The position numbers and the translations under genes were made by a program. This document shows positions 941-58,192 of a stretch of 64,000 bases of DNA, in pieces; the first letter of the stretch is position 1, and each line of letters opens with the position of its first letter. The DNA comes from Shewanella baltica. Its GTDB lineage: Bacteria > Pseudomonadota > Gammaproteobacteria > Enterobacterales > Shewanellaceae. The DNA lies in NCBI RefSeq assembly GCF_900456975.1, contig NZ_UGYM01000002.1, positions 1,798,001-1,862,000 of the forward strand, given 5' to 3'. The notes beneath the pieces were generated by a model. It did not search any database. It was not told the origin of the DNA and saw only the letters and a list, made by a program, of their open reading frames with translations.

Positions 941-1050
941 GCTAGCGAATAGGGCTAGCGAATAGGGCTAGTGAATTGGGGCTAGCTAACTTTGGGCTAG
1001 CTAACTTTTGATTAAATAACTCTTGGTGAGTGAATTGCGACTAGCTAAAC
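941..1050. repeat. Degenerate GCTAGC array abutting the tyrP stop codon
   Basis: Read on plus it contains GCTAGCGAATAGG twice in succession, then a degenerate GCTAGTGAATTGG, then GGCTAGCTAACTTT twice. On the minus strand these are copies of the last tyrP bases, TTTAGCTAG, which include the stop codon. The array therefore looks like repeated duplication of the gene's 3' end. Confidence 0.7.
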
Positions 1051-2228
1051 ATCTGCGCGGCGATAACCACTATTCCGCAAAGTGTGGCGAGCATTAAGGC
1101 AAACTTGCCGCCCGCGACCCGATATCCCGTCGGCATATTGGTCGCATCTCGCGTCTGGCGCTGTTTCCACACCATGGCCACAGGTAAAAAGATAGCGAGG
1201 ATCACCAGCGCAATCGCCGCGTAACCTAGGGCTGTGATAAAACCTTGGGGGTAGAATAGGGCAAAACCTAAGGGCGGTAAAAAGGTGATGGCGGCGGTTA
1301 TGCCACGACCAGAAAAATTATCCTCACGTCTTAAGGTCGAGGCCATAAAATCGAACAAGCCTAAACTCACCCCTAAAAATGAAGTCGCAAGGGCGAGATC
1401 GGCAAACAAACTGATCGCGCTGCTTAAGTATTCGCTGTGCAGTACGCTCGCCAGTTGATTGATAAAGCTCGATAAGCTCTGATTTTCGAGCAATTGGCTT
1501 TGGCTCAGTACACCTTGGCTACCTACTTGCCACAAAAGATAAATGACCAGTGGTAAAGCTGAGCCGAGTAGCATGATCCTGCGCAGGGCTTTGACCTCAA
1601 CCCCTAAGTAGCGCACCACTGATGGAATCGACCCGTGGAAACCAAAGGAGGTAAAAATCACCGGAATAGCCGTGATAATCAAACCTTGGTTAAGTGGGAG
1701 TTCGAGTAAATGTGGGCTTTCTACCTGCGGCAGTAACAAGGCCAACATAAGCAGTAATGCCAATAGCTTAAGGGCAAACAAACCGCGGTTGATAAGGTCC
1801 ACACAGTGAGTTCCCATGCCCACAATCACCCCAATCAGCAAGGTAAACAGGATGGCGCCCGCCTGTGGTGGCAAACTTAGCCCTAGCCAAGTGCTCAGCT
1901 TTTGGTTCACTTGCTCACCGCCACCGGCAATGTAGGCGGCGCAAAGGGCGTACAGTAAAAACATCAAGGCGCTATTGGCGATCAACTGGCCCTTACGACC
2001 TAATAAGCGTTGCGCTAAGTGATTAAGGCTGGCATCGCTGGGGGCGAATTGATGGATTTCCACCATAAGCAGTGCCGTGTAGGCCATTAGCGCCCACAGG
2101 ATCAACATGATGGCGGAGGACGTGCCAAAACCAAGTCCCGCCGATGCGATAGGCAAAGCCAGCATACCCGCGCCGATAGTGGTGCCTGCGATAAGCAGCA
2201 AACTGCCGAAAATTTTATTCTGTGTCAT
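1041..2228 (-). CDS. tyrP: Tyrosine-specific transport protein
   Basis: 395-residue inner-membrane proton symporter of the hydroxy/aromatic amino acid permease (HAAAP) family that imports tyrosine. The N-terminus GSLLLIAGTTIGAGMLALPI is the family signature. The internal segments AIPVIFTSFGFHGS, LFADLALATSFLGVSLGLFD and ITFLPPLGFALFYPQGF closely match E. coli TyrP as I recall it. About eleven hydrophobic segments are visible, and the length is right (E. coli about 403). Mtr or TnaB would be the alternatives, but the wording is nearest TyrP. It is monocistronic, between a YdbH-like gene and the his operon, all on the minus strand. No convincing TyrR box was found upstream. The stop codon is embedded in a repeat array. 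Confidence 0.87.
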   Translation of the reverse strand: MTQNKIFGSLLLIAGTTIGAGMLALPIASAGLGFGTSSAIMLILWALMAYTALLMVEIHQFAPSDASLNHLAQRLLGRKGQLIANSALMFLLYALCAAYIAGGGEQVNQKLSTWLGLSLPPQAGAILFTLLIGVIVGMGTHCVDLINRGLFALKLLALLLMLALLLPQVESPHLLELPLNQGLIITAIPVIFTSFGFHGSIPSVVRYLGVEVKALRRIMLLGSALPLVIYLLWQVGSQGVLSQSQLLENQSLSSFINQLASVLHSEYLSSAISLFADLALATSFLGVSLGLFDFMASTLRREDNFSGRGITAAITFLPPLGFALFYPQGFITALGYAAIALVILAIFLPVAMVWKQRQTRDATNMPTGYRVAGGKFALMLATLCGIVVIAAQMFS

Positions 2229-2756
2229 AACATAATCTCAAAAGCGTGTCGGATGAAAAAGAGCTAAAGATTTGATCCGAAAGCAACTGTCTTAAAATAT
2301 TTTGATGCGATTCAATGTGAAACGATTCAAGCACAAAATGATTTAAGCAAATGAGACAGTGGCGCTCTGCGGATCCGAAAGGATATGGCCACAATGGAAG
2401 GTCAGGCGAGGGAGCCTATCTATGCACAAACAATCTGAAGATGCTGAAACTCGTATCTTCAGGTAGCTTGGGTATACCCATTGCGGCTACAGATAGGGAG
2501 TATAAAATGCTGTGAAACACATAAAACTTGCCTTAGCGTGTGTTGAGTAAAAACGGATAAGTGTTTTCATGCCTTGCCTTAATAACTTAACGGCAACGGA
2601 GGCTACCATAGGGATTAGAGGTGTACTTGTCAACCATTACAACAGTATTTTGTTTGTTTTTTGTCATGTGACTAAGCAGGAAGACATGCCTAACTCACAC
2701 TGAGTTTATGGTCAACGAGGGGAAGGAAAGAGGAGTTAGCTAGATTTATGGCAAGA
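2229..2756. other. Intergenic region between tyrP and the his operon
   Basis: About 530 nt without a supportable gene, presumably containing the tyrP promoter and leader. A hairpin is formed by CTGAAGAT (2435-2442) and ATCTTCAG (2455-2462) with a 12-nt loop, but no T tract follows on either strand. An opposing 14-codon ORF starting at 2422 overlaps this hairpin and is not credible. Confidence 0.5.
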
Positions 2757-2795
2757 TAAAAAATGCCGCAGACTTGGCTTAAGTGTGCGGCATTT
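2757..2795 (-). terminator. his operon terminator
   Basis: AAATGCCGCA (2761-2770) pairs with TGCGGCATTT (2786-2795). On the minus strand the stem is followed by a run of T. It lies 44 nt past the hisI stop, the natural end of the his transcript. Confidence 0.85.
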
Positions 2796-2838
2796 CAAGA
2801 TGTAAGCGACCAGCGTGATATCAGAGCCAGTGAGCAGA

Positions 2839-3480
2839 TTATGCTTTGCTCTGCAGCGCCTTTTCATGTCTTGCCAGCAAGTTTGCTGTGATGTCACTGA
2901 GGCTTAAGTCTTGATCTTCAAGCAATACCAGCAAGTGATAGATAAGATCTGAGGCTTCGTTAACTAACTCTTCCTTATCGTGGGTCGCAGCGGCAAGGGC
3001 GGTTTCAAGGCCTTCTTCCCCGACCTTTTGGGCGATACGTTTAGTGCCACGTGCAAATAAAGACGCTGTATAGCTGGAATCGGCACTTTGCCCTTTACGC
3101 GAGGTGATTAAGCTGGCGAGGTTGTTCAAAAATGGGTGCGCATTGTCATCTAACCAGCAACTTTCGGTGCCTTTGTGGCAGGTTGGGCCGTTGGGGATCA
3201 CTTGCACTAACAGGCTGTCGTTATCGCAGTCCTTATCGATAGCCACCAACTTTAGGGTATTGCCCGAGGTTTCACCCTTAGTCCACAAGCGCTGTTTTGA
3301 GCGGCTGAAAAAGGTCACATCACCTGTGCTTAAGGTTTTTTCCAGCGCGGCCTTATCCATATAACCGAGCATTAATACCTTGCCCGATAAATGGTTTTGG
3401 ATCACGGCAGGAATAAGCCCATCCTGTTTGTCCCAATCCAGCTCGCTAAAATCCGCTTTAGTGTTTGTTTGCGTTGACAT
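2839..3480 (-). CDS. hisI: HisI: phosphoribosyl-AMP cyclohydrolase / phosphoribosyl-ATP pyrophosphatase
   Basis: Bifunctional cytoplasmic enzyme for steps 2 and 3 of histidine synthesis. The N-terminal cyclohydrolase half (about residues 8-115) carries the metal-site elements DCDNDS and [11 protein letters not shown]. The C-terminal pyrophosphohydrolase half carries [20 protein letters not shown] and [19 protein letters not shown]. The ATG at 3480 is preferred because AAGAGTG sits 6 nt upstream and it gives a family-length product (213 residues, E. coli about 203). An upstream ATG at 3519 would add 13 unconserved residues. It is the last gene of the operon, 134 nt after hisF, and the gap holds a repeat derived from the hisF end. 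Confidence 0.95.
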
Positions 3481-3579
3481 AGTGTTCACTCTTAATTTGT
3501 TGATGCTTTTTAGCGACATATTCAGGTTGATTGCTCATGCTCTTACTGTCGCGGTATCGAGAGGTGGCATTAGCTCGCT

Positions 3580-3614
3580 ATTCACGATTAACCGCGAGCG
3601 GCTAATTGCAATAG

Positions 3615-3640
<26 letters not shown>
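3580..3640. repeat. Duplicated hisF 3' end
   Basis: On the minus strand ATTGCGATTAGGCGCTAG, the last codons of hisF plus its stop, is followed directly by the degenerate copy ATTGCAATTAGCCGCTCG at a spacing of about 20 nt. Further weaker copies follow. It is one of several arrays that overlap a stop codon. Confidence 0.55.
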
Positions 3641-5173
<1,533 letters not shown>

Positions 5174-6001
5174 TCATTGGTCAGCCTTATTTACACCTGC
5201 TTGGCCATCAGCAGAGTTGCTTCGCAGCGCTTTGTGCATCAGAGCTTCGTTCATCAGAGCTTTGTTCATCTTTAACTCGTCCATCTGTAAAAAGTTACGC
5301 AGAATTTGCGCGCCCACGGCGGCACTTTTTTCGGGGTGGAACTGTACGCCCATAAAGTTGCCTTTGCCGATGGCGGCGCTAAAGCCTTCACCATAGGTAC
5401 ATTCGGCTAAGGTAAATTCGCTCAACGGCGCGCGGTAACTGTGGACGAAATATACATAACTGCCATCTTCAATACCCGCAAACAGCGGGTGAACGTTAGG
5501 GCTGTTGGCGCCTTGTGAGTTTGTCGTGAGCTTAAGTTGGTTCCAGCCCATGTGCGGCAAAGGTAGGCTTTCAGCTTTGAGTAACTGCGTATCCAGCTCA
5601 CAAATGTCGGTTGGGATTATGCCTAAGCACTCACAATCTTGACCTTTGCCGCCGCGCTCCTTAGAAATTGCCGCCAACATTTGCATGCCAAGACATACGC
5701 CCAACACAGGTTGAGTCAGGCCTTGGATGAGTTCGACCAAGCCTTTTTCATGTAAGGACGCCATGGCGGCACCCGCTGTGCCCACACCCGGCAGCACCAC
5801 ACGTTTTGCCGCTTTGATTTTGGCTTTATCGTCTGTGACCAATACCTTAGCGCCTAAACGCTCGAAGGCGAAACGTACTGAGCTTAAATTGGCGCAGCCC
5901 GTGTCTATGATGACGGTTTCAGCATCTGATGATTCATTTGCTGTTAATTGCGGGCTAGCTGTTAATTGCTGGCCAGCTGTTAATAGAGTGTCTTGTTGCA
6001 T
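5174..6001 (-). CDS. hisH: HisH: glutamine amidotransferase subunit of IGP synthase, with repeat-derived ends
   Basis: Class I glutaminase that supplies ammonia to HisF. The nucleophile motif GVCLGMQML and the His-Glu pair in VQFHPEKS are present, with the core starting at TVIIDTGCANLSSVRFAFER. At 275 residues it is much longer than usual (about 196-220). The first 28 or so residues contain LTAGQQ-LTASPQ-LTANES, encoded by an 18-nt tandem repeat. The last 36 or so contain NKALM-NEALM-HKALR, encoded by a 15-nt tandem repeat. Both extensions keep the frame. The ATG at 6001 has GAGG 5 nt upstream; no good start lies between the extension and the core. It sits between hisB and hisA. Confidence 0.93.
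   Translation of the reverse strand: MQQDTLLTAGQQLTASPQLTANESSDAETVIIDTGCANLSSVRFAFERLGAKVLVTDDKAKIKAAKRVVLPGVGTAGAAMASLHEKGLVELIQGLTQPVLGVCLGMQMLAAISKERGGKGQDCECLGIIPTDICELDTQLLKAESLPLPHMGWNQLKLTTNSQGANSPNVHPLFAGIEDGSYVYFVHSYRAPLSEFTLAECTYGEGFSAAIGKGNFMGVQFHPEKSAAVGAQILRNFLQMDELKMNKALMNEALMHKALRSNSADGQAGVNKADQ
5229..5273. repeat. 15-nt in-frame tandem repeat in the hisH 3' end
   Basis: Three consecutive units, GCTTTGTGCATCAGA, GCTTCGTTCATCAGA and GCTTTGTTCATCTTT. The first two encode the pentapeptide copies NEALM and HKAL-like steps of the HisH tail; the third is degenerate. The unit length, a multiple of three, keeps the frame open. Confidence 0.85.
5939..5986. repeat. 18-nt in-frame tandem repeat in the hisH 5' end
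   Basis: Units TGCTGTTAATTGCGGGCT (5939-5956), AGCTGTTAATTGCTGGCC (5957-5974) and a partial third to 5986. On the coding strand they encode the hexapeptide copies LTAGQQ, LTASPQ and LTANES. Confidence 0.85.
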
Positions 6002-6032
6002 CCTAACCTCTTAAACGATTTATGCTGATGCC

Positions 6033-7124
6033 TTAAAGTACGCCTTTGCTCGATGGCAGAATATCGCCTTCAACTTTAACTGCTTGGCGTAGCGCGCGGC
6101 CGAGCACTTTAAACAGGGCTTCAACCTTGTGGTGATCGTTATCGCCTTCGGTCGACACATGCAGCGTACAGCGCAGGCCATCGGCAAAGGAGCGGAAGAA
6201 GTGTGGCACCATTTCTGTGGCCATTTCGCCTACGTGCTCACGTTCAAAATCGGCCGAGAATTTGATAAAAGGACGGCCAGAGATATCCAGCAGACATTCG
6301 CCCTTGGCTTCGTCCATCGGCAGACTAAAGCCGAAACGGGCAATGCCGCGTTTGTCACCGAGCGCTTGGCGCAGGGCGTCACCTATGGCCAGCGCCGTGT
6401 CTTCGACGCTGTGGTGATCGTCGATTTCTAAGTCGCCATCGACTTTCACATCCATTCTAAAATTACCGTGGGTGGCAATTTGATCGAGCATATGATCGAA
6501 AAAGCCAATGCCAGTGTCGATTTTGCCTTTGACTGAACTGTCGAGGTCCACAGTCACACGAATATCAGTTTCTTTGGTGGTGCGCACGACCGTCGCGGTG
6601 CGGCCTTTATTGAGCAGCGCATCGGCGATGGCGTTCCAGCCCAAAGTGTCGCGTTGATATTTCAGGCTTTTAATGCCCATGGCATTGCCCAGTTCCACAT
6701 CGGTTTCGCGATCGCCAATCACAGCTGATTGGGTGAAATCGATACAGCCTTGGGTGAGATAGTCTTTTATTAGCCCAAGCTTAGGTTTACGGCAGCTGCA
6801 ATTTTCATCGTTAAAGTGCGGGCAAATCACCACATCTTCGAAGTTAACCCCTTGGCTTTTGAGGATTTGCATCATCATATTGTGGGGCGCGTCGAAATCT
6901 TCCTGCGGGAAAGACGGTGTGCCAAGGCCGTCTTGATTGCTGACCATGACTAAACGAAATCCAGCCTTTTGCAGACGGAGCAAAGCGGGGATCACCTGTG
7001 GCTCAAATACTAATTTAGCCAGACTATCGACCTGTTTGTCGGTGACGGGTTCTTCAATCAAGGTGCCATCGCGGTCGATAAACAGAATTTTTTGTGCAAC
7101 GTTCGGGATAAATTGTGGGTTCAT
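6033..7124 (-). CDS. hisB: HisB: histidinol-phosphatase / imidazoleglycerol-phosphate dehydratase
   Basis: 363-residue bifunctional enzyme for steps 6 and 8 of histidine synthesis, a fusion typical of enterobacteria-like gammaproteobacteria. The N-terminal HAD phosphatase (residues 1-165) has DRDGT at about 17-21 and the zinc loop [15 protein letters not shown]. The C-terminal dehydratase (about 170-363) has [16 protein letters not shown] and the manganese motifs DDHHSVED and [12 protein letters not shown]. The C-terminus LPSSKGVL is conserved. It lies 101 nt downstream of hisC and 31 nt upstream of hisH. Confidence 0.97.
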
Positions 7125-11712: not shown

Positions 11713-13734
11713 TTGATTATCCCTTTGACTCGCTCCCGCCAACCGACATCAAAGCATGCACCCTCTAAAGAAATAGTGGCTAAGCCTGCTGCCTCAAAAG
11801 GCGCTGCTGCGGTGAGCCGACTCGCGGGCGAAGTGCAACGCGCATTTTTGCCCGATGGAGTATTGTCTAAACATATTCAAGGGTTTAGTGCGCGAACAAG
11901 CCAAATGCAGATGGCGCAGCAAGTGAGTGAGGCGATAGCGTCTAAGAGTAATGTGGTGATTGAGGCGGGCACAGGGGTGGGTAAAACCTTTGCATATTTG
12001 ATCCCCGCGATATTGAGCGGCAAGCAAGTTATCGTCAGTACGGGCAGTAAAAATCTGCAAGAGCAGTTGTTTTTTAAAGACTTACCCGCGCTGGTCGCCA
12101 TGTTGGGGATTGAGCCCAAACTGGCGCTGCTTAAGGGGCGCAATAATTATCTGTGCCAGTGGCGACTCGATAAGCAAATGAGCGAGGCGACACATATCGA
12201 TGCGCGTTTATTGGATGATTTGTTGAAAATCAATCAGTGGGCGAGCACCTGTAAAGATGGCGATATTGGCGGCTTGACCTCAGTACCTGAGAATTCCTCG
12301 GCGCTGCCGCTCGTGGTCAGTACCAAAGAAAGCTGTATTGGTAAGCGCTGCGATTTTTATGATGCCTGCTTTACGCGCAAGGCGCGCAGCCGTGCCATGG
12401 ATGCCAAAATTATTGTGGTTAACCACCATTTATTTTTCGCCGATAGCGTACTCAAAGACACGGGCTTTGCCGAGTTACTGCCCGATCCCGACGTAGTGAT
12501 TTTCGATGAAGCGCATTTATTACCCGATATTTGCGTTAACTATTTTGGCCAGCAATGTTCGAGTCGCACTATCGATGATTTTATTCAAAAGCTACTCGCT
12601 ATTTATCAGACCGAACTCAGTGATACGGGGCAACTCGCCCAATTTTGTCAGCGTTGCCTCGCTAAATTAAGTGACTGGCATAATCAGTTATATTCCTGCG
12701 GTGAATCCGACTGGCGTTTAGTGCTGGGCAATAAAGCGCTCGCGGCGGCGTCATGGGATTTATTAGCGGAATTAACTGCGCTGCAGAATTTATTAATGGC
12801 CCATATTGGCCGCAGTGAATTGTTAGATGATATCGCCATCAAGTTGGCGGAGCTGAATAATAAGCTCAGTGTGTTTTTTAACTGCGATAATAATCTGGCG
12901 GCCTACAGCATTGAATTTGGTAGTCGCTTTGTGGTGCTGCGAATTTCACCCATCAATATTGCCCGTGAGTGCCAGCAGTTATTTGTGCCGGAAACCAGCT
13001 GGATATTTACCTCGGCAACTTTGCAAGTTAACCGCAGTCTTGCCCATTTCGCCAGAGAAATGGGTATCGTCGATGCGCAGCAAAGCATTCTCGACAGTCC
13101 CTTCGATTATCCCCGCCAAGCGGTATTTTGTGTGCCGAGACAACTCGGCAGCGTGACCAATCAACAGCAAGCGTTAAAGCAGCTGGTGGAGGTGTGCGTG
13201 CAAGCTATAGATGCGGCACAGGGACGGACTTTTATTTTATTTACCAGCCATAAAATGCTCGAACAAGCGGCGCTGGCACTGCGAACTCGCACTCATTATC
13301 CGCTGCTGGTACAAGGTCAAGCGGGTAAACAGAGTCTTCTGACGAAGTTTCGCCAACTCGGCAATGCGGTATTGCTCGGCACCAGCAGTTTTTGGGAAGG
13401 GGTGGATGTGCGCGGCAAATTATTAAGCTGCGTGATTATCGACAAATTACCTTTTGTGTCGCCTGATGAGCCCCTGTATCGTGCCCGAGCCGACAATGTT
13501 AGTCGTCATGGACTCGATCCTTTTACTGAAGTGTCCTTACCGCAGGCGATTATTGCGCTAAAACAAGGTGTTGGCCGTCTTATTCGTGATGAGAAAGATC
13601 GCGGTGTGCTGATCCTTTGCGATAATCGCATCGTGAATCGCTACTATGGCCAAGCCTTTTTAAACTCATTGCCGCCGATGGCGCGCACCCGTGACTTAGA
13701 TAAAGCGCTGGAATTTTTAAGGCAGATCCCTTAA
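11713..13734 (+). CDS. yoaA: YoaA-type ATP-dependent iron-sulfur helicase (DinG/XPD family)
   Basis: 673-residue XPD-like superfamily 2 5'-3' DNA helicase, associated in E. coli with the polymerase III chi subunit in repair. Seen are Walker A GTGVGKT at 86-92, DEAH at 265-268, probable 4Fe-4S ligands C148, C208, C213 and C219 (CIGKRCDFYDAC), the late motif SSFWEGVDVRG, and QGVGRLIRDEKDRGVL. The frame opens at TTG 11713, right after AAAGGA. That spacing is too tight, and TTG at 11725 is an alternative, so the start is uncertain. About 40 N-terminal residues are extra relative to E. coli YoaA. The stop lies in a fourfold 14-nt array. Confidence 0.92.
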   Translation: MIIPLTRSRQPTSKHAPSKEIVAKPAASKGAAAVSRLAGEVQRAFLPDGVLSKHIQGFSARTSQMQMAQQVSEAIASKSNVVIEAGTGVGKTFAYLIPAILSGKQVIVSTGSKNLQEQLFFKDLPALVAMLGIEPKLALLKGRNNYLCQWRLDKQMSEATHIDARLLDDLLKINQWASTCKDGDIGGLTSVPENSSALPLVVSTKESCIGKRCDFYDACFTRKARSRAMDAKIIVVNHHLFFADSVLKDTGFAELLPDPDVVIFDEAHLLPDICVNYFGQQCSSRTIDDFIQKLLAIYQTELSDTGQLAQFCQRCLAKLSDWHNQLYSCGESDWRLVLGNKALAAASWDLLAELTALQNLLMAHIGRSELLDDIAIKLAELNNKLSVFFNCDNNLAAYSIEFGSRFVVLRISPINIARECQQLFVPETSWIFTSATLQVNRSLAHFAREMGIVDAQQSILDSPFDYPRQAVFCVPRQLGSVTNQQQALKQLVEVCVQAIDAAQGRTFILFTSHKMLEQAALALRTRTHYPLLVQGQAGKQSLLTKFRQLGNAVLLGTSSFWEGVDVRGKLLSCVIIDKLPFVSPDEPLYRARADNVSRHGLDPFTEVSLPQAIIALKQGVGRLIRDEKDRGVLILCDNRIVNRYYGQAFLNSLPPMARTRDLDKALEFLRQIP

Positions 13735-13782
13735 AAACGCTCCCTTAAAGCCTATCCCATAAAACAAATCCCTTAAGGCAGC
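13727..13782 (+). repeat. Four 14-nt units overlapping the yoaA stop codon
   Basis: TCCCTTAAAAACGC, TCCCTTAAAGCCTA, TCCCATAAAACAAA and TCCCTTAAGGCAGC run head to tail without gaps. The first unit contains the yoaA stop TAA (13732-13734), so each copy reproduces the final Pro codon context and the stop. Confidence 0.85.
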
Positions 13783-16323: not shown

Positions 16324-16902
16324 ATGAATCCAGCATTTTATAGCCTAGCCACAGTCGCCGTTTTAACCTTGTCACTCGCCACAACCGAACCGGCTGTTGC
16401 CACAGATGCTCCTACACTAGCTAAAGCCGCATCGGATAAAACCGCTGAGGCTTCACATGCAGGCATTGCGCAACCCGCGACAGCGTTAGAAGATACCTTA
16501 TCTGCCCAAATTGCAGCGGTGGATTTTGCCGTGTTTGATAGCTTCAATAAGTGCGCAGCCTCCGCTGAACTTAAGAAACACGCGGCGTTTTTCACTGAAG
16601 ATGTGGAGTTTTACCACGACACAGGTGGCGTGACGTGGAACCGCAAGGACATGATCGCCAACACCGAAAAATACGCCTGTGGCCATTACCGCCGCGAGTT
16701 AGTTGCGGGCACGATGAAAGTGTTTCCGGTGAAAGAGTTTGGCGCAATAGAGCTAGGCGTTCACCGTTTTTGCAGCTTTGAAACCGGCAGCTGTGATGGT
16801 CTAGCCGACTTTGTCATTGTGTGGCGCAAACAGGGCGAACAGTGGAAAGCCACCCGAGTGCTGAGTTATGGGCACAGAACCGCTGAGGCCAAAACTGACT
16901 AA
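16324..16902 (+). CDS. Secreted NTF2-like (DUF4440/SnoaL-type) protein
   Basis: 192 residues. A signal peptide (1-27, cleavage probably after AVA in EPAVATDAP) is followed by a low-complexity Ala-rich linker (28-60). An NTF2-like fold follows, beginning VDFAVFDSFNKCAASAELKK. The stretches HAAFFTEDVEFYHDTGGVT, RKDMIANTEKYACG and FVIVWRKQGEQWKATRVLSY match the cone-shaped DUF4440 pattern of polyketide-cyclase-like proteins. Four Cys in the domain could form disulfides in the periplasm. GGAGAG lies 4 nt before the ATG. Function unknown; it is divergent from the TonB receptor but no functional link is shown. Confidence 0.75.
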   Translation: MNPAFYSLATVAVLTLSLATTEPAVATDAPTLAKAASDKTAEASHAGIAQPATALEDTLSAQIAAVDFAVFDSFNKCAASAELKKHAAFFTEDVEFYHDTGGVTWNRKDMIANTEKYACGHYRRELVAGTMKVFPVKEFGAIELGVHRFCSFETGSCDGLADFVIVWRKQGEQWKATRVLSYGHRTAEAKTD

Positions 16903-16914
16903 ACCACGATACTA

Positions 16915-16972
16915 AAGCTAGCTTTTAACAAGAAACGAGTCCCTAACAAAATGCTAGCCTTTAACAAAATGC
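16915..16972. repeat. 18-nt array overlapping the DUF938 stop codon
   Basis: On the minus strand CATTTTGTTAAAGGCTAG, the codons for HFVKG plus the stop, is followed head to tail by CATTTTGTTAGGGACTCG and TTTCTTGTTAAAAGCTAG. These are three 18-nt copies of the gene's last codons including the stop. Confidence 0.85.
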
Positions 16973-17601
16973 AGCAGTCGATTATTGGCGGGCATAGCCA
17001 CATCTTGCTCGAGTGTTAAGCCTTGCTCGCTGGCTAAACTGCAAATCCATTCGATATCGCGAATGCCGCTGGCGGGATCGCGCTGTTTTAAAAAGGCATC
17101 GAATTGGCGATTGCTGTCACTGCTGAATTCGCCTTGGTAGTTGAAGGGGCCGTAAATGCACAGTGTTTTGAGTTGGGGGAGATACAGACCAAGACCAGTA
17201 AAAAGCGCTTCTACCATGTTTTTGCTCATAATATGCAAAGTGTTCGCAGTAAATACGCCATCAATATCAGGTGTTAATCCCTCCACCGGCCATGGCGCGG
17301 TAACATCAAGGATAAGCGGTAAAGCTAGATTTGCCCCAGCATTGAATAGCCCGCCTTCTTGCTCGCATCTTGCGCTAATGCCACCAATATATTCTGCTTG
17401 ATCGCTGGTTTGCCAGATTAAATGGGGAAGATTTGCTGCAAAAAATACGGCATGTTGGCCAGTGCCACTGCCGATTTCGAGCACATGTTGGTTGAGTGAG
17501 AATGCTTGCGTTAATACGGCTAAAATCGGCGCTTTGTTGTTTTCGCACGCTTGGGAAAACGGCAGTTGGCTAAGTGGCTGGACAATTGGCAATCGTGGCA
17601 T
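16954..17601 (-). CDS. DUF938 SAM-dependent methyltransferase-like protein
   Basis: 215 residues of the DUF938 class I methyltransferase family, substrate unknown. LPFSQACENNKAPILAVL is the typical opening, VLEIGSGTGQHAVFFAANLP is the SAM-binding motif I, and GVFTANTLHIMS and YGPFNYQGEFSSDSNRQFD are strongly family-like. The length is usual. It is monocistronic and convergent with the NTF2-like gene. The C-terminal codons and stop are the first unit of a downstream 18-nt repeat. Confidence 0.88.
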   Translation of the reverse strand: MPRLPIVQPLSQLPFSQACENNKAPILAVLTQAFSLNQHVLEIGSGTGQHAVFFAANLPHLIWQTSDQAEYIGGISARCEQEGGLFNAGANLALPLILDVTAPWPVEGLTPDIDGVFTANTLHIMSKNMVEALFTGLGLYLPQLKTLCIYGPFNYQGEFSSDSNRQFDAFLKQRDPASGIRDIEWICSLASEQGLTLEQDVAMPANNRLLHFVKG

Positions 17602-18021
17602 AATGGACTCTAGGTTGCTGAGATTAAAAGAGGATGACGCCGCACAAGCCTATCTTAAACCAGCAAAAAGCATAAGGCTTAAAAGATAAAATGAGCCACG
17701 CCTTAATATTCGGCGCCTAAGCTCATATTCTTAATCTCTGGCTCCTTAATCTCTAGCTCCATAATCACAGGGGCCGGCATTTCAGATACTTTCATCTCAA
17801 GCTTTTCCATTTCAGGCTCGTCAAGCAGGAGCCAGCCCAACTCCCTTTGTTATGTCCAGCAAGCGGTTAATCCAATCCACTATTGACCTCGATCTCAACT
17901 CAGATATACTCTCAAATTCTGAACGCTTGTAAAAAATATAAAACAACCGTTGGGGGGACGTGTTAACACTCGCGCCTATAAACTAAGACTCAACACCCAT
18001 TACCAGCACACAGCTTTTAGT
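17602..18021. other. Intergenic region before the PuuB-like gene
   Basis: About 420 nt without a gene. It contains a perfect-length 15-nt duplication, TTAATCTCTGGCTCC (17731-17745) and TTAATCTCTAGCTCC (17746-17760), with weaker copies around it to about 17830. No hairpin terminator was seen. Confidence 0.5.
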
Positions 18022-18077
18022 ACTTAACGTTCAACACTCAACTTTTAATATTTAACTTTTAACACTTAACTTTCAAC
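18022..18077 (+). repeat. Four 14-nt units directly upstream of the PuuB-like gene
   Basis: ACTTAACGTTCAAC, ACTCAACTTTTAAT, ATTTAACTTTTAAC and ACTTAACTTTCAAC run without gaps and end 4 nt before the AAGGA ribosome binding site, so they form the mRNA leader or promoter of the next gene. Confidence 0.85.
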
Positions 18078-18091
18078 ATCAAGGAATGACT

Positions 18092-26364: not shown

Positions 26365-26522
26365 TCTCATCGGCTATTCCGCCTTATGGTTTTGGCTTTT
26401 TATACTTCATGCCGCGCACATTAAGGGCTCTAAATTGTAAAATCGACTGTGTTGATTTTGGACTGAAATGTGTTAGATAGTAGTGCCGAAGGGCTGCAAC
26501 TTTAGTTTTAGTTTTATTTTTT

Positions 26523-26558
26523 AGTGATTTAGTGATTTAGTGATTTAGTGATTTAGTG
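26523..26558 (+). repeat. Perfect 8-nt microsatellite (AGTGATTT, 4.5 copies)
   Basis: AGTGATTT is repeated four times exactly and followed by AGTG. Perfect copies suggest recent or continuing slippage. It marks the left side of the accessory island and lies in no gene. Confidence 0.95.
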
Positions 26559-33843: not shown

Positions 33844-33882
33844 CTGGTTATCGCGTAATCAACTTATCGCGCAATAAAACAG

Positions 33883-34514: not shown

Positions 34515-34790
34515 ATGAAGCGTGTATTGATAAGTTTAACGGGTAAAGTACAAGGTGTGGGTTGTCGGCATGCGACCTTGACTAAGGCCAGAGCCTTGGG
34601 CGTGACAGGCTATGTCACCAATTGCCGTGATGGTAGTGTCGAAGTATTAGCCCAAGGCAGTGATATTGCGGTGAATAACTTGATTGCTTGGTGCGAAGTG
34701 GGCGTGCCTTGTACCGAGGGATTAACTGTCACTGTGGGAGAAGACGAAGCCGATGATATCTACCTCGACTTCTCCATAGTACAGTCTTAA
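34515..34790 (+). CDS. yccX: Acylphosphatase
   Basis: 91-residue acylphosphatase that hydrolyses carboxyl-phosphate bonds. LTGKVQGVGCRHATL has the phosphate-cradle Arg, and GYVTNCRDGSVEVLAQG has the catalytic Asn. The usual aromatic residue before the Arg is Cys here. The ATG at 34515 follows AAGGGG by 8 nt and gives the family length; an in-frame ATG at 34467 would add 16 odd residues. The final codons (VQS) and stop are the first copy of a downstream repeat array. Confidence 0.9.
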   Translation: MKRVLISLTGKVQGVGCRHATLTKARALGVTGYVTNCRDGSVEVLAQGSDIAVNNLIAWCEVGVPCTEGLTVTVGEDEADDIYLDFSIVQS

Positions 34791-34867
34791 GTTAAAAGTA
34801 CAGTCTTAAACAGCTGCACAGTCTTAAGCTAAACGTGCAGTCTCAAACAGCAGTACAGTCTAAGTCA
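34780..34867 (+). repeat. CAGTCTTAA array starting in the yccX stop codon
   Basis: ACAGTCTTAA, which encodes the final Gln-Ser and the stop, recurs at about 34781, 34800 and 34818, with degenerate copies near 34837 and 34854. The spacing is about 18 nt, so the array copies the gene's last codons plus stop. Confidence 0.85.
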
Positions 34868-43557: not shown

Positions 43558-43752
43558 CTCAATTAGTGGTTGTTCGTCCTGTTAGCCGATTGGTGCTGAA
43601 ATCAGTGCTGACGCTTGCAGGAAACTCCTTTTATTCTCAATCACTATGTCTCAATGACTATACTATTTCTTTATTATTAGATTGTGGCGACTGAGGATGT
43701 GAGGACTTGATGACTCGAGTACTGAAGGCTTTAGAATGAAAGCCACATAAAC

Positions 43753-43808: not shown

Positions 43809-43845
43809 CGTTTTGTATCTATGCGTTTTGTATCTATGCGTTTTG
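43809..43845 (+). repeat. Perfect 15-nt tandem duplication
   Basis: CGTTTTGTATCTATG occurs at 43809-43823 and 43824-43838 without mismatch, followed by a partial CGTTTTG. Confidence 0.95.
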
Positions 43846-43867
43846 GAAAGCTAAGTGTTAATCGAGA

Positions 43868-43920
43868 CTAACGCTTCGAGAATAACACTTCGAGATTAAC
43901 GCCTACAATTAACGCTTTAA
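43868..43920. repeat. 14-nt array overlapping the suhB stop codon
   Basis: TAACGCTTCGAGAA (43869), TAACACTTCGAGAT (43883), TAACGCCTACAAT (43897) and TAACGCTTTAA (43910, within suhB) follow each other directly. On the minus strand they are copies of the last suhB codons, AAGCGT plus TAA. Confidence 0.85.
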
Positions 43921-51794: not shown

Positions 51795-51802
51795 GTGATG
51801 TA

Positions 51803-52187: not shown

Positions 52188-52299
52188 GCTTTTGGCGTTG
52201 AGCATTTGTGCAACTAATCTTGTCTATGCCTCTAGTTGTTTGATTTATCCCTGCGCAGGCGTATTATGCGCTCAAAATTAATGGTTGCCGGAGACCAGA

Positions 52300-53205
52300 A
52301 TGAGAATAGCGATCTTATCGCAAGGGCCTGAGTTATATTCAACGAAGCGACTCGTTGAAGCGGCTCAATTACGTGGTCATGAAGTACAAGTAATCAATCC
52401 CCTTGAATGTTATATGAATATCAACATGCGGCAATCGAGTATCCACATTGGTGGGCGAGAGTTACCCGCATTTGATGCTGTGATCCCCCGCATTGGGGCG
52501 TCGATTACCTTTTATGGCTCGGCGGTATTGCGTCAGTTTGAGATGATGGGCGTATATGCTTTAAATGATTCTGTTGGGATCTCGCGCTCACGTGACAAAT
52601 TGCGTTCTATGCAGCTGATGTCACGCCGCGGCATTGGCTTACCCATTACTGGATTTGCCAATAAACCGAGTGATATCCCCGACTTGATTGATATGGTGGG
52701 TGGCGCGCCTCTGGTGATTAAATTACTCGAAGGCACCCAAGGTATCGGCGTGGTATTAGCCGAGACTCGTAAAGCGGCTGAGAGCGTGATTGAAGCCTTT
52801 ATGGGCCTTAAAGCCAACATCATGGTGCAGGAATATATTAAAGAAGCCAATGGCGCAGACATTCGCTGTTTCGTGCTCGGCGATAAAGTGATTGCCGCCA
52901 TGAAGCGTCAAGCTATGCCCGGTGAGTTCCGCTCTAACTTGCACCGTGGTGGCACGGCAAGTTTAGTCAAATTAACCCCAGAGGAACGCTCAGTCGCCAT
53001 TCGTGCAGCTAAGACCATGGGGCTTAATGTGGCTGGTGTTGACTTGCTACGCTCAAACCACGGTCCTGTGATCATGGAAGTTAACTCTTCACCTGGTCTT
53101 GAAGGAATTGAAGGCGCCACCACGAAAGATGTGGCGGGTGCTATTATTGATTTTGTTGAAAAAAATGCGATTAAAGTGAAAAAGGTGACGCAAGCACAGG
53201 GTTAG
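52300..53205 (+). CDS. rimK: RimK-type glutamate ligase
   Basis: 301-residue ATP-grasp ligase; in E. coli it adds glutamates to the C-terminus of ribosomal protein S6. [20 protein letters not shown] is the family start. [40 protein letters not shown] and [17 protein letters not shown] are the ATP-grasp elements. ATG 52300 follows GGAGA by 5 nt; a TTG at 52285 is rejected. It lies between fdx and iscX but is separated from fdx by a terminator. Confidence 0.94.
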
Positions 53206-53318
53206 TGCCCTTGCTGTCGAGTATTGACTACGGAATATCAACACTTGATTCACCTCCTTATGGGTAACGCCGTTTAGCAAGAACTTACCCATTAAAGCGA
53301 ACCGAATAGGGGAAAACG

Positions 53319-53516
53319 ATGACATTAACCTGGATAGATTCGTTAGATATTGCGTTGGAATTACTCGAAGCACACCCAGAGGTGAATCCTACTCAGCTGC
53401 ATTTCACCCAATTGTATGAGTGGGTGTTAGCCTTGGATGATTTTGCCGATGATCCCAAGCACTGTAATGAAAAAATACTGGAAGCGATTCAGCAGTGTTG
53501 GATTGATGAAAAGTAG
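53319..53516 (+). CDS. iscX: IscX, acidic iron-sulfur cluster assembly modulator
   Basis: 65 residues. MTLTWIDSLDIALELLEAHP, QLYEWVLALDDFADDPKHCN and EKILEAIQQCWIDEK match E. coli IscX position by position, including the acidic helix that binds iron and IscS. GGGGAA lies upstream of the ATG. In E. coli it directly follows fdx; here a terminator and rimK intervene, so it is probably expressed with rimK or alone. Confidence 0.93.
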   Translation: MTLTWIDSLDIALELLEAHPEVNPTQLHFTQLYEWVLALDDFADDPKHCNEKILEAIQQCWIDEK

Positions 53517-53628
53517 TGAGCACAGCGGTGATACGGCTTTTTATGTGAGGCATCTTGTCCTTTTGACGTTTAACTAAGGTGATTTACCTCACGTATTTGC
53601 AGGGGCGCAGAGAATATTTGGCGAGAGT

Positions 53629-53642
53629 TTGATCACAGTCAA
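53629..53642. promoter_or_regulatory. FNR/EtrA-like site upstream of the HPGHG small-protein gene
   Basis: TTGATCACAGTCAA deviates at one position (ATCAA read as GTCAA) from the FNR consensus TTGAT-N4-ATCAA. It lies 91 nt before the ATG of the 55-residue gene, a distance that fits an activated promoter. CRP binds similar sites. Confidence 0.4.
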
Positions 53643-53733
53643 GTTCATTTTTAGCGGATATCGTACCTTGTTGTATATTGGTTAAGGCATTTAAATGGCT
53701 TAACTTTGTTATCGCAACTGCAAGGATGTTCAC

Positions 53734-53901
53734 ATGAAACTTTTGCTTGTATTGTTATGTATGCTTGTCCCTTCAATGGCTTGGGCTCATCCAGGGCATG
53801 GCGGTGTCGGTTTATTCCATCACTTGTTAGATCTTGCTCCCGCAGTCATTTTAGTCGCTTTGATTGCTTGTGCAGGTATTTGGGCAAAAAATAGAAAATA
53901 A
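53734..53901 (+). CDS. Small HPGHG membrane or secreted protein
   Basis: 55 residues: a signal peptide MKLLLVLLCMLVPSMAWA, then HPGHGGVGLFHHLLDLAPAV, then a hydrophobic segment ILVALIACAGIW and the basic end AKNRK. AAGGA lies 7 nt before the ATG, and a terminator follows the stop, so it is a complete small gene. Four His and the HPGHG motif right after the cleavage site recall the start of HupE/UreJ-type nickel/cobalt transporters, but the rest of such a transporter is absent. A small one-helix periplasm-facing metal-binding protein is a reasonable but unproved idea. Confidence 0.75.
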   Translation: MKLLLVLLCMLVPSMAWAHPGHGGVGLFHHLLDLAPAVILVALIACAGIWAKNRK

Positions 53902-53923
53902 TCCCATTTTTTAATGAGTTAAT

Positions 53924-53962
53924 GGACCCTGCTGAGGATTTATCCTCCTAGCGGGGTCTTTT
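53924..53962 (+). terminator. Terminator after the HPGHG small gene
   Basis: GACCCTGCTGAGGA pairs with TCCTCCTAGCGGGGTC (wobbles and one mismatch), followed by TTTT. Confidence 0.8.
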
Positions 53963-54098
53963 GTGTGATCAAGCTGATTACGAATAAAGCGAATGTGCGC
54001 AATATCTCAGACTAATTTGCTATAAAGATAGGATTTAGCTTTTAAATTTCGTATAATCCGCGCGAATTTTTTAAACTTGCTGACAAAGGAAGCTAGTT

Positions 54099-54530
54099 AT
54101 GGCGATCGAACGCACATTTTCTATTATCAAACCTGATGCTGTTGCAAAAAACCACATCGGTGCTATCTACAATCGTTTTGAAACTGCTGGTCTTAAGATC
54201 GTTGCATCAAAAATGTTACACCTGACCAAAGAACAAGCTGAAGGTTTCTATGCTGAGCATAGCGAACGCGGCTTCTTCGGTGCTCTGGTTGCATTCATGA
54301 CTTCTGGTCCTATCATGGTCCAAGTATTAGAAGGCGAAAACGCTGTTTTAGCTCACCGTGAAATTTTAGGTGCAACTAACCCAGCTCAAGCGGCTCCTGG
54401 TACTATCCGTGCTGATTTCGCTGAAAGCATTGACGAAAACGCGGCTCACGGCTCTGATGCTGTTGAATCTGCTGCTCGTGAAATTGCTTACTTCTTCAGC
54501 GCTGAAGAACTGTGTCCACGCACTCGTTAA
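54099..54530 (+). CDS. ndk: Nucleoside diphosphate kinase
   Basis: 143-residue enzyme that equilibrates nucleoside triphosphates. [20 protein letters not shown], the loop [16 protein letters not shown], the HGSDAVESA stretch with the phosphorylated His, and REIAYFF are all present. Length equals E. coli Ndk. It is monocistronic with its own terminator; codon use is strongly biased, as expected of a highly expressed gene. Confidence 0.98.
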
Positions 54531-54546
54531 TTCGATGCTAAGACTG

Positions 54547-54572
54547 AAAAAGGAGCCCTAGGCTCCTTTTTT
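54547..54572 (+). terminator. ndk terminator
   Basis: AAAAAGGAGCC and GGCTCCTTTTT enclose the 3-nt loop CTA, 16 nt after the ndk stop. Confidence 0.95.
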
Positions 54573-54721
54573 ATTGGCTGCAATTTAGCGAATACTGCTT
54601 GCCGTGCGCAATGAATCTAATGCCGCGATACCAATTACATCTCGCTTTACCGTTTTAAAGCGGTATTAGCGTTTGTTTTTATTGTTCTTTTAAAATTCTG
54701 CACATTTTTTTAATTTTCTTG

Positions 54722-54749
54722 CTTGAAATTTTCTCTCCCGTCCTTATAT
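54722..54749 (+). promoter_or_regulatory. Sigma32-like heat-shock promoter
   Basis: CTTGAAA (54722-54728), a 13-nt spacer and CCTTATAT (54742-54749) fit the heat-shock sigma factor pattern CTTGAAA-N(13-15)-CCCCATnT with two changes in the -10. It leads into the small heat-shock gene. Confidence 0.65.
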
Positions 54750-54779
54750 CTATTTCAGGATCGCTCGATGAGGATCCTA

Positions 54780-54888
54780 GTGTGAATTCTGTGCCGTAAG
54801 GACAGAAGATTTAATTCGGCAGACTCTACAAACGTTTTCATCCTGAAAACAGTCCGCCAATTCTCCATATTGCTTAAGACAAGGATAT
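54780..54888 (+). promoter_or_regulatory. ROSE-like RNA thermometer in the ibpA-type 5' leader
   Basis: The last hairpin (54867-54888) pairs ATATTGCTT with AAGGATAT, so the ribosome binding site AAGGA (54881-54885) is held in a stem with one U-G pair and an unpaired G in UUGCU, the hallmark of ROSE elements. Upstream hairpins are also visible (GTTTTCA with TGAAAAC at 54834-54850; TCTGTGCC region with GGACAGA near 54788-54806). Heating would open the last stem and free the ribosome binding site. Confidence 0.8.
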
Positions 54889-54892
54889 GAAT

Positions 54893-55336
54893 ATGCGTAC
54901 TTATGATTTAACACCACTTTACCGCAGTGCCATTGGTTTTGACCGTTTAGCGCAATTGGCAGAACATGCCGCTGCCAATAATGGCAACTCAGGTTATCCT
55001 CCATATAACATCGAATTACTCGGCGAAAATCGTTATCGCATAACGATGGCCGTAGCGGGATTCTCAATGGATGAACTTGAGATCAGCAGTGAAGGTGAAA
55101 AATTGCTGGTGAAAGGCAATAAAGCCGAAAGCCAAACCGAGCGTAAATACCTGTATCAAGGCATAGCTGAACGCGGTTTTGAGCGTACTTTTCAGCTGGC
55201 AGACTATGTCACTGTGCTCGGTGCAAGTTTAGAAAATGGCTTACTCAATGTTGATTTAGTGCGTGAAATTCCTGAAGCATTGAAACCACGCAAAATTGAG
55301 ATCACCTCATCGCGCTTGTTAGACAGCCAGTCATAA
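54893..55336 (+). CDS. ibpA: Small heat-shock protein, IbpA-like
   Basis: 147-residue Hsp20-family holdase. [20 protein letters not shown] matches IbpA. The alpha-crystallin domain (about 37-130) includes [20 protein letters not shown] and [20 protein letters not shown]; the tail has KPRKIEI with the oligomerisation motif I-x-I. ATG 54893 lies 7 nt after AAGGA and matches the family; the ATG two codons earlier is too near. IbpB is the paralogue alternative. Control by sigma32 and a ROSE thermometer is indicated upstream. Confidence 0.92.
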
Positions 55337-55357
55337 TTGACGCTGTGATAATCGCTT

Positions 55358-55395
55358 AAAAAACAAGGGGAGCATTATGCTCCCCTTGATGTTTT
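55358..55395. terminator. Bidirectional terminator between ibpA and ilvH
   Basis: CAAGGGGAGCA and TGCTCCCCTTG form an 11-bp stem, flanked by A-rich and T-rich tracts on either side. It serves both converging genes. Confidence 0.9.
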
Positions 55396-55437
55396 TGTAT
55401 TTATGCGAAAAATGTCCGCGAGATTTCCTTCAGAAAA

Positions 55438-55932
55438 CTAGGCTTTCATGGCCTTTTCGCCGCGGGCCAAACCCACCACGCCGGAGCGTGAGACTTCGAC
55501 CAGTTTGGTGACTTCCCCCAGCGCATGAATAAAGGCATCGAGTTTATCTGACGTGCCCACCATTTGGATGGTGTATAAATTGGCGGTGACATCGACAATC
55601 TGTCCGCGGAAAATATCCGCCATGCGTTTCACTTCTTCCCTAAATTCACCTTGGGCACGGACCTTAACAAGGGCGAGTTCGCGTTCAATATAAGCAGACT
55701 CGGTAATATTCGATACTTTTAACACATCGATTAACTTATGTAGCTGCTTCTCTATCTGCTCTAACACCATTTCGTCGGCAACGACTGTGATATTAAGCCG
55801 CGACAGGGTGATATCGTCCGTTGGCGCCACTGTTAAACTTTCAATGTTATAACCGCGTTGTGAAAACAAACCGACCACACGAGACAGGGCGCCGGATTGG
55901 TTTTCTAATAATACAGATATAATTCGACGCAT
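55438..55932 (-). CDS. ilvH: Acetolactate synthase III small (regulatory) subunit
   Basis: 164 residues (E. coli IlvH 163). The N-terminal ACT domain [20 protein letters not shown] (about 1-75) binds valine; the C-terminal half completes the regulatory subunit. The ATG at 55932 shares its A with the ilvI stop (TAATG), implying coupled translation; an in-frame start at 55959 within ilvI is not family-like. Confidence 0.95.
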   Translation of the reverse strand: MRRIISVLLENQSGALSRVVGLFSQRGYNIESLTVAPTDDITLSRLNITVVADEMVLEQIEKQLHKLIDVLKVSNITESAYIERELALVKVRAQGEFREEVKRMADIFRGQIVDVTANLYTIQMVGTSDKLDAFIHALGEVTKLVEVSRSGVVGLARGEKAMKA

Positions 55933-57650
55933 TAGCATTTCTCCGTCTTGGTCAGCCACATTTCATTCATCGCACCACCGCGGATCAACATGGGGTACAC
56001 GTGCTCAGTTTCATCCACCATGATATCGATAAAGACCAGCCTGTCTTTCATCGCCAGCGCTTCAGCCATTTTTGACTCAAGTTCGGTGGGATCGCTGATC
56101 GTCATGCCAACATGACCATAGGCCTCGGCAATTTTGGCAAAATTTGGCACTGAATCCATATAGGAATGTGAGTGACGGCCAGAGTAAATCATGTCCTGCC
56201 ATTGTTTTACCATGCCAAGGAAACGATTGTTTAAGTTGATGATTTTAACCGGCGTATCATATTGCAGCGCGGTCGAAAGCTCTTGAATGTTCATCTGGAT
56301 GGAACCATCACCCGTGACACACACAACAGTAGCGTCAGGCATGGCCATTTTTACGCCCATCGCGGCGGGCAGGCCGAATCCCATTGTCCCTAGGCCACCT
56401 GAGTTGATCCAGCGACGCGGCTTATCGAACGGATAGTACAAGGCGGCAAACATTTGGTGCTGGCCAACATCTGATGCGACATAGGCATCGCCATTGGTTA
56501 GCTTATACAAGGTTTCAATCACTTGCTGTGGTTTGATGCGGCCACTGTTTTTGTCATAGGCCAGACAATCGCGACTGCGCCATTGTTCAATGTCATTCCA
56601 CCAAGTAGCAATGGCATCGTTGTCGTTGTGTTCGTTCGATTCATCTAACAGTGCCAACATGCTGTCTAAAATGCTGTCGGCTGACCCCACGATAGGAATA
56701 TCCACGTGGATAGTTTTTGAAATAGACGAGGGATCGATATCTATATGCAAAATGGTCGCGTTCGGACAGTATTTTTCCACATTATTGGTGGTTCTATCGT
56801 CGAAGCGTACACCAATACCGAAGATCAAATCGCAGTTATGCATTGTCATGTTGGCTTCGTAGCGACCGTGCATCCCAAGCATGCCTAAACTGTTTTTGTG
56901 GGTGCTTGGAAAAGCGCCAAGTCCCATCAGCGTGCTGACGACGGGAATATTTAATCTCTCAGCCAATTGCAGGATTTGCTTATCACAACCTGAGATAATC
57001 GCGCCGCCACCGACATAAAGTACCGGTTTTTTCGCGGCTAACAGGGCTTGAAGACCACGGCGGATCTGACCTTTATGGCCTGATGTCGTTGGATTATACG
57101 AGCGCATTTTGACGCTTTCTGGGTAGCAATATTCGTGCAGCAGAGCTGGGTTTAAACAATCTTTTGGCAGATCGACAACTACAGGACCGGGACGGCCAGT
57201 AGAGGCAATGTAAAAAGCCTTTTTAATAATTTCAGGAATTTCAGTCGGATCTTTAACTAAAAAGCTGTGTTTCACTACAGGGCGAGAGATACCTATCATG
57301 TCGCATTCTTGGAAGGCATCGTTACCGATAAGATTGCTCGGGACTTGACCCGATAACACCACAAGGGGGATAGAATCCATGTAAGCGGTGGCAATACCGG
57401 TAATCGCGTTGGTCGCGCCTGGGCCTGAGGTGACTAATACAACGCCCACTTTACCCGTGGCACGGGCGTAGCCATCGGCCATGTGTACGGCGGCTTGTTC
57501 GTGGCGAACGAGTATGTGTTCAATACCGGGGATAACGTGCAGGGCGTCGTAGATATCTAAAACTGAACCGCCAGGATAACCAAAAATGTGCTTTACGCCT
57601 TCATCGATCAAAGAACGCACTATCATGCTGGCGCCGGATAACATCTCCAT
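55932..57650 (-). CDS. ilvI: Acetolactate synthase III large (catalytic) subunit
   Basis: 572-residue ThDP- and FAD-dependent enzyme, first committed step of branched-chain amino acid synthesis. [20 protein letters not shown] and [20 protein letters not shown] hold the ThDP-activating Glu; [19 protein letters not shown] is the ThDP-Mg motif; [20 protein letters not shown] is typical of AHAS. AGGAG lies 6 nt before ATG. No leader peptide rich in Ile, Leu or Val was seen upstream, so attenuation is unlikely; Lrp control as in E. coli is only an inference. Confidence 0.96.
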
Positions 57651-57993
57651 GTGGAACTCCTATTGCATAGTACCGTTACGGTAAACAGTATCTTGTTACA
57701 GCGACGGTAATCGCTCTAAAAATTAAGCCTGAAGGGTAATTCAGACTCCGAAATGCTGAACTGACTTCGTCGAAGACAAGTGACTCATCCCTTAGGATGC
57801 AGCAACTGTTGCAATGAACAGAATTTCATCATATTCAAAAAAAACAACATTTCAAGCCTTTTATGTAAAAAATAACCAACTTGAAACAATTTCACGTTTG
57901 AATGACTCGATAACTTGCTTGAATCGCCAAGTAACCTAGGCTGGTTTATGGGCTTATCTTATATTTTTCAGATTGTTAGATGCTTAAAAAGCA
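57651..57993. other. ilvIH control region
   Basis: About 340 nt upstream of ilvI. It contains A/T-tract-rich DNA (57836-57900) and a dyad ACCGTTACGGT at about 57671-57681 in the leader. A short frame MMKFCSLQQLLHPKG has too few regulatory codons to be an attenuation leader. No other gene was seen. Confidence 0.45.
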
Positions 57994-58018
57994 AAAACGG
58001 CACTAAAAGTGCCGTTTT
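57994..58018 (-). terminator. Terminator downstream of the Bcr/CflA-type gene
   Basis: AAAACGGCAC and GTGCCGTTTT form a 10-bp stem with a 5-nt loop; on the minus strand T-rich sequence follows. It lies 165 nt after the transporter stop and separates it from ilvIH. Confidence 0.85.
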
Positions 58019-58147
58019 GGTGTTGGAGGTTAGATAAGCAGATACTTAACTGTCGCGATTAAATATTACTTATTTGCTACATCTGTGAAAGCCAATGCGC
58101 TGTTTTCACGCGATCAAACATGTGTTGCCGATGTGGCATTGGTATCC

Positions 58148-58192
58148 ATGGCTTTTAAAAATAGCCCCTTAAAAATAGATCCTTAAACCGTC
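58148..58192. repeat. CTTAAAAATAG repeat overlapping the Bcr/CflA-type stop codon
   Basis: On the minus strand GTTTAAGGATC (including the stop TAA) is followed by TTTTTAAGGGGC and TTTTTAAAAGCC at about 14-nt spacing, again as copies of the final coding bases and stop. Confidence 0.65.

Follow-up and report, generated by a model that had tools for sequence, protein, structure and literature searches.

Tandem arrays near gene ends of Shewanella baltica are real, are not tied to stop codons and probably stem from genome-wide short duplication

When direct repeats misalign in the course of replication or repair, tandem gains and losses of DNA result. In Escherichia coli, minisatellites with units of at least 20 bp at 90% identity make up 2-4% of the variable loci (PMC2884548), slippage has been proposed for long simple sequence repeats of 1-11-nt units, the unit length of which has been tied to the polymerase footprint (Mrazek et al. 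2007 as summarised in PMC4679880), and in bacteria and archaea short tandem repeats are weakly enriched up- and downstream of genes (PMC12699852). We consider here the tandem arrays of Shewanella baltica (the host), including those of a 64-kb stretch (the window, positions 1798001-1862000) of its 5.3-Mb genome, for which a first-pass annotation had described degenerate copies of the final codons plus the stop behind eight genes, tyrP, hisF, yoaA, a DUF938 gene, yccX, suhB, a gene of Bcr type and a MORN gene. The repeats exist, but their link to stops does not, and neither a system acting on gene ends nor a provision of backup stops is supported; the arrays are probably the outcome of genome-wide short tandem duplication and slippage that favours steps of 12-17 nt, is elevated in this lineage and has its products filtered by selection. 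No description of such arrays in Shewanella was found in titles and abstract openings among the matches listed, which is weak evidence, the subscription literature being mostly outside that scope.

The genome was sampled in 60 stretches of 20 kb (1.2 Mb), with arrays detected by a lag-based tandem detector (default threshold 13, looser threshold 11), joined in the window by Tandem Repeats Finder (TRF), and with dinucleotide shuffles as controls. Genes were called in all stretches, those of E. coli included, by a codon-usage script, which returned plausible genes in the window and the stops of which are firm while the starts are not. At threshold 13 the sample holds 68 intergenic and 43 coding arrays and one that is unplaced. 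The main intergenic count covers gaps up to 1500 nt (157.9 kb), where 66 arrays compare with 1 in three shuffles of the whole set; in the first 20 stretches, 15 arrays compare with 0.1 per shuffle.

Most of these arrays fall within a narrow range of unit lengths. A period of 12-17 nt characterises 35 of the 41 host arrays with at least 2.7 copies, and a period below 12 nt is found in 2 of the 41, which sets the arrays apart from repeats with 1-11-nt units; for two arrays listed under period 10 or 12 the true unit is 5 or 6 nt. Coding arrays most often have a period of 15 (14 of 42), and multiples of 3 account for 40 of 42. In a simulation in which each copy was mutated at 5%, giving about 10% divergence between copies, detection of two copies climbed with the period and detection of three copies already reached 62-88% at 8-11 nt, so that neither the drop above 17 nt nor the scarcity at 8-11 nt is an effect of detection. 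As the same size dominates within and between genes of the host, we infer a mutational origin combined with a reading-frame filter. In 39 further Shewanella loci around mfd the preference is less marked, with units of 12-17 nt in 23 of 35 arrays.

Differences of roughly one unit or several units also separate species, compared here with one genome per species of the Shewanella group. The gain and loss of units at orthologous 3′ ends that the first-pass annotation had envisaged is seen at yccX, yoaA, tyrP, the Bcr-type gene, the DUF938 gene and suhB (the orthologue alignments have gaps, with 3 of 6 unplaced for yoaA, 4 of 6 for the Bcr-type gene, 3 of 5 for the DUF938 gene and 1 of 5 for tyrP). 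At the yccX stop there are about five copies in the host, about two in S. hafniensis, the Mfd of which is 98% identical to that of the host in the best segment, and fewer in S. oncorhynchi and S. glacialipiscicola, and S. salipaludis carries a two-copy duplication of its own at this stop. The host exceeds S. hafniensis by one 14-nt unit at yoaA; three copy states occur in three species at the Bcr-type gene (14 nt more in S. hafniensis, 13 nt fewer in S. oncorhynchi); the DUF938 gene has extra units in S. hafniensis and none in S. oncorhynchi; and 55 nt of the host array at tyrP are missing from all four other alignable species. At suhB the host array corresponds to a different, longer array in S. 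hafniensis and to almost none in S. oncorhynchi, S. glacialipiscicola and S. profunda. Point changes alone distinguish the host array ahead of the gene at 18086 from its counterpart in S. hafniensis.

Over about 76 kb aligned with S. hafniensis, considering clean indels only (68 of the 117 between genes and 16 of the 31 within genes), the intergenic indels comprise 41 of 1 nt, 6 of 2 nt, 3 of 3-5 nt, 2 of 6-8 nt, 3 of 9-11 nt, 8 of 12-17 nt, 0 of 18-25 nt, 1 of 26-40 nt and 4 that are longer, and 9 of the 16 coding indels are 12-20 nt long. Of the eight intergenic indels of 12-17 nt, five resemble their flank more closely than do 98% of shuffles. In 12 other Shewanella pairs 5 of 86 clean intergenic indels are of 12-17 nt, 2 of them tandem.

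Three further loci are recorded for their differences between species. An array in a tandem gap at genome positions 1905364-1905477 (L149:5364-5477) consists of more than nine perfect 12-nt copies, of which about 95 nt are absent from S. hafniensis, so that it is likely a recent expansion. At the orthologue of window position 2308 (L242), S. glacialipiscicola has its own array of units of about 15 nt, where one or two degenerate copies are present in the other species. At L148:12072 the unit variants stand in a changed order in S. hafniensis, which slippage as proposed here does not explain.

With respect to the distribution across genomes, the host has 4.18 arrays per 10 kb of intergenic DNA, three other Shewanella have 7.3 (18 arrays), 1.65 (5) and 3.6 (5), one genome from another genus of Shewanella's family has 0.58 (1 array) and six other genomes of the order have 0 to 2.5 (8 arrays in total). 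The seven non-Shewanella genomes of the order, when pooled, hold 9 arrays in 82.6 kb (1.1 per 10 kb; p 1.5e-5 versus the host). In six 50-kb stretches of E. coli K-12 no array was detected in 34.3 kb of intergenic DNA (p 5e-6 versus the host); at threshold 11 these yield 1 array, compared with 1.3 in E. coli shuffles and 21 in 300 kb of the host. In further genera, where the first-pass annotation had suggested looking, some arrays occur: small samples around mfd contain 3 in 17.5 kb of Oceanimonas/Zobellella/Oceanisphaera, 2 in 9.1 kb of mixed other genera, 1 in 16.4 kb of Aeromonas/Tolumonas and 0 in 6.0 kb of Parashewanella. The repair genes searched do not separate array-rich from array-poor genomes: none of 11 genomes has a match to Ku (end joining), and the exonuclease I C-terminal and SbcD C-terminal families each occur in 10 of the 11, the host included, in array-rich and array-poor genomes alike. 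Both families are without a match in the same array-poor genome of the order (G072), which is listed as 100% complete.

A process aimed at transcript or translation ends that copies gene 3′ ends, as put forward in the first-pass annotation, would account for arrays being commonest after stops and between convergent genes (8.3 per 10 kb in convergent, 3.6 in tandem and 2.1 in divergent gaps; convergent versus divergent p 0.0004) and for 11 of the 66 arrays overlapping a stop and 0 of 66 a start (12 and 3 with longer gaps kept). The upstream array edges, however, show no peak at the stop, numbering 10, 9, 4, 10 and 9 in 20-nt bins from -20 to +80 (each bin from 0 on offering 573 to 644 sites, with convergent-gap arrays counted from both sides), and the tail of the gene including the stop matches itself (p <=0.025) in 28 of 613 genes compared with 18 of 503 at a control anchor 24-40 nt downstream (Fisher p 0.45). 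In the 1.2-Mb sample the stop is therefore not a preferred target. Arrays cover 2.4% of the first 25 nt after stops, 2.7-3.7% at 25-225 nt and 0.5% of the 25 nt before starts; there are also arrays ahead of genes and within divergent gaps (8 arrays), and coding DNA has the same period peak. While ongoing copying stands, with copy number varying between close species and arrays commoner after genes, the assignment of this copying to transcript ends does not, and a process of this kind is improbable. Selection for copies as backup stop codons is very unlikely. A stop triplet does recur one period downstream in 18 of the 24 stop-spanning arrays (threshold 11, sample and window together), but 9 of the 24 periods are divisible by 3 where 8 are expected, the second in-frame stop follows at a median of 6.5 codons in this set versus 8.0 for all genes, and the stop-like triplet said to be carried by each copy is near background, being present in 86% and 81% of units on the two strands versus 75% of random intergenic segments. 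A gradient toward the replication terminus was not supported either (rank correlation with distance p 0.27; 5.1, 4.9, 3.7 and 2.7 arrays per 10 kb with distance). A telomere-like (CCCTAA)n run of about ten near-perfect hexamer copies lies over the stop of a minus-strand gene at 3513358-3513418 (L125:13358-13418).

Arrays of different sequence at the same place, as at the yccX stop in S. salipaludis and the window 2308 orthologue in S. glacialipiscicola, together with a mild enrichment of CTTA/TAAG in units (31 versus 15.9 of 84 arrays), would suit functional elements under selection, be it binding sites, RNA 3′ ends or regulatory elements. These are unlikely in view of the turnover of copy number and sequence between close species, the sparsity of arrays beside starts and the lack of shared unit sequence, as array pairs share exact 10-, 11- and 12-mers in 23, 4 and 1 cases versus 25.1, 5.7 and 1.7 in shuffled arrays. 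The same counts agree with the initial statement that units differ by locus, and they argue, with a unit length that differs between loci and no excess of palindromes (at least 6 nt in 21 of 84 arrays versus 19.0 random), against a dispersed mobile repeat family or insertion-element footprints, a highly improbable origin even though arrays have formed at many loci. Seeding by hairpins or palindromes, which CTTAAG- and GCTAGC-like cores had brought to mind, was rejected on the same lack of palindrome excess and on 5-bp inverted repeats that are fewer in arrays with 15-nt flanks than in random intergenic DNA (24 versus 37.5). Stems of 7 bp are likewise fewer than in random intergenic DNA (10 versus 14.3), yet more than in the arrays' own shuffles (10 versus 4.1), and hairpins may thus contribute to some arrays. 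Chance self-similarity of AT-rich intergenic DNA, to which the near-threshold repeats at hisF and MORN might be assigned, has a negligible probability and is ruled out as the source of the whole set by the shuffles and by the unit-sized indels between species.

The genome-wide duplication favoured here would proceed by tandem duplication of stretches that are typically 12-17 nt long, followed by gain and loss of units, and the simplest route would be misalignment of the growing strand (slippage) in replication or repair. Persistence would be set by selection: in genes almost only frame-keeping lengths would remain, arrays just upstream of starts would be purged, and arrays after stops, above all between convergent genes, would be tolerated and decay by point mutation. 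Where a unit spans a stop, the second copy would fall behind it and leave the protein unaltered, so that copied gene ends would be a by-product. That some Shewanella and relatives possess a separate, inaccurately copying duplication activity with an inherent step of 12-17 nt is a more doubtful though real possibility; as a speculation, the step might derive from, for example, retained primer-length flaps of the lagging strand or a polymerase re-priming one footprint back. Were such an activity at work, degenerate arrays would be seeded genome-wide far faster than in E. coli, and it would shape post-gene DNA and five-residue protein repeats.

Several observations weigh against slippage that is simple and raised in this lineage. 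Inserted units are often imperfect copies of their neighbours (71-85% identity), which simple slippage does not explain, and it also falls short at tyrP, where the expansion contains two unit types, one of them no plain copy of the ancestral stretch; the enrichment of CTTA/TAAG is left unexplained. The share of 12-17-nt units is lower in the three other Shewanella (9 of 18, 3 of 5 and 1 of 5 arrays). As controls, nine other-genus pairs (loci L052 and L063 each used twice) gave 4 indels of 12-17 nt among 46 clean intergenic ones, 0 of them tandem; with this similar share the size class alone is not lineage-specific, and the tandem contrast between Shewanella and other-genus pairs rests on few events. 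The Shewanella with 1.65 arrays per 10 kb is nearly as poor as other genera, and small samples of Colwellia/Thalassotalea around mfd reach nearly the host level (6 in 17.2 kb, 3.5 per 10 kb). The duplication process thus extends beyond Shewanella, and it varies several-fold within the genus.

In the window itself, Pfam agrees with the earlier gene names (Trp_Tyr_perm for tyrP, His_biosynth for hisF, Helicase_C_2 for yoaA, DUF938 for 16954-17601, Acylphosphatase for yccX, Inositol_P for suhB, MFS_1 for the Bcr type and MORN_2 for the MORN gene). The arrays announced for the eight sites are real throughout: between -20 and +110 around each of the nine stops tested, the DUF938 site being flanked by two genes, the array score is reached by 0 of 300 dinucleotide shuffles. 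That the copied unit consists of the final codons plus the stop, on the other hand, holds for half of the named genes. At hisF (minus strand; p 0.002), yccX (plus strand; p 0.001), yoaA (plus strand) and the DUF938 gene 16954-17601 (minus strand; the latter two each reached by 0 of 1000 shuffles), the last codons and the stop match the DNA 3′ of them better than shuffles do. The hisF repeat (3594-3632) is a weak two-copy repeat of period 20 over the stop (3615), the yccX array (34778-34861) has about five 18-19-nt copies over the stop (34790), the yoaA array (13726-13776) has 14-nt units over the stop (13734), and the DUF938 repeat (16914-16967) lies over the stop with a period of 36, equal to about two 18-nt units. 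The same match fails for tyrP (p 0.12), suhB (p 0.20), the Bcr-type gene, the MORN gene and the plus-strand gene ending at 16902 (1.0 each). At tyrP (minus strand; 941-1025, the TRF row covering 941-1008), suhB (minus strand; 43862-43902) and MORN (plus strand; 33848-33880) the arrays lie downstream of the stop and not over it, with units of 13-15 nt at 16-100 nt from the tyrP stop (1041), units of 14 nt immediately after the suhB stop (43909) and two weak 16-nt copies (score 10) just past the MORN stop (33843). The array of the Bcr-type gene of the major facilitator superfamily (MFS; minus strand; 58155-58187) has 14-nt units that reach the stop (58183), yet the codons ahead of the stop are unrepeated. 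TRF and the lag detector recover arrays at most of the eight sites; TRF reports yoaA, yccX, suhB and the Bcr-type gene over these same coordinates, and its output lacks hisF, the DUF938 site and MORN.

Comparable arrays of the window lie away from stops, namely an intergenic array at 726-791 (26/13-nt units), an array directly upstream of the gene at 18086 (18004-18079; 14/28-nt units), a convergent-gap array at 26520-26558 (8-nt units, about five copies) and an array of 15-nt units in the lolE-suhB gap (43809-43845), all four found by TRF and the lag detector. TRF also reports a repeat at 59785-59811 (1.9 perfect copies of a 14-nt unit), where S. hafniensis lacks 14 nt, and a 14-nt repeat of 1.9 copies at 43635-43661, about 80 nt past the lolE stop, so that the lol genes are not quite as free of repeats as had been stated. 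The window contains 15 arrays where the remainder of the sample would predict 4.0, a nearly fourfold density that may reflect ascertainment, the window having been picked because arrays had been noticed there.

Cumulatively, these results set a mutational signature apart from a supposed gene-end system and caution that repeats around stop codons can arise without a role in termination. A 12-17-nt step that is common in the host and below detection in the sampled E. coli DNA points to a difference in replication or repair.

Compared with known systems, the arrays are best read as a size-restricted variant of bacterial minisatellites or variable number tandem repeats (VNTR), the markers of multiple-locus VNTR analysis (MLVA), with which they share head-to-tail units above about 10 nt, a mostly intergenic location and shifts of copy number between relatives, and from which they differ by the narrow 12-17-nt unit, the strongly degenerate copies and a density of several per 10 kb of intergenic DNA. 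Long simple sequence repeats are similarly patchy in abundance among prokaryote lineages and similarly ascribed to slippage, but heptanucleotides dominate there, whereas the Shewanella units are mostly of 12-17 nt and imperfect (PMC4679880). The TAACTGA repeats of Beggiatoaceae are also short intergenic direct repeats, some of them over stops, with frame and stops restricting their location, yet they consist of one fixed heptamer situated mostly toward start codons, while in Shewanella the sequence is locus-specific and starts are avoided (PMC4679880). The enterobacterial repetitive extragenic palindromic (REP) or palindromic units are likewise short and extragenic (PMC2884548). REP is, however, a palindromic sequence family, and the Shewanella arrays have neither a common family nor a palindrome excess. 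The tandem repeats of archaeal Borgs resemble the arrays in being pervasive, recent and of independent origins, in keeping the frame in genes only and in examples of about 18-21 nt, but are perfect, A-rich and extrachromosomal, whereas the Shewanella arrays are degenerate and chromosomal (PMC9879509).

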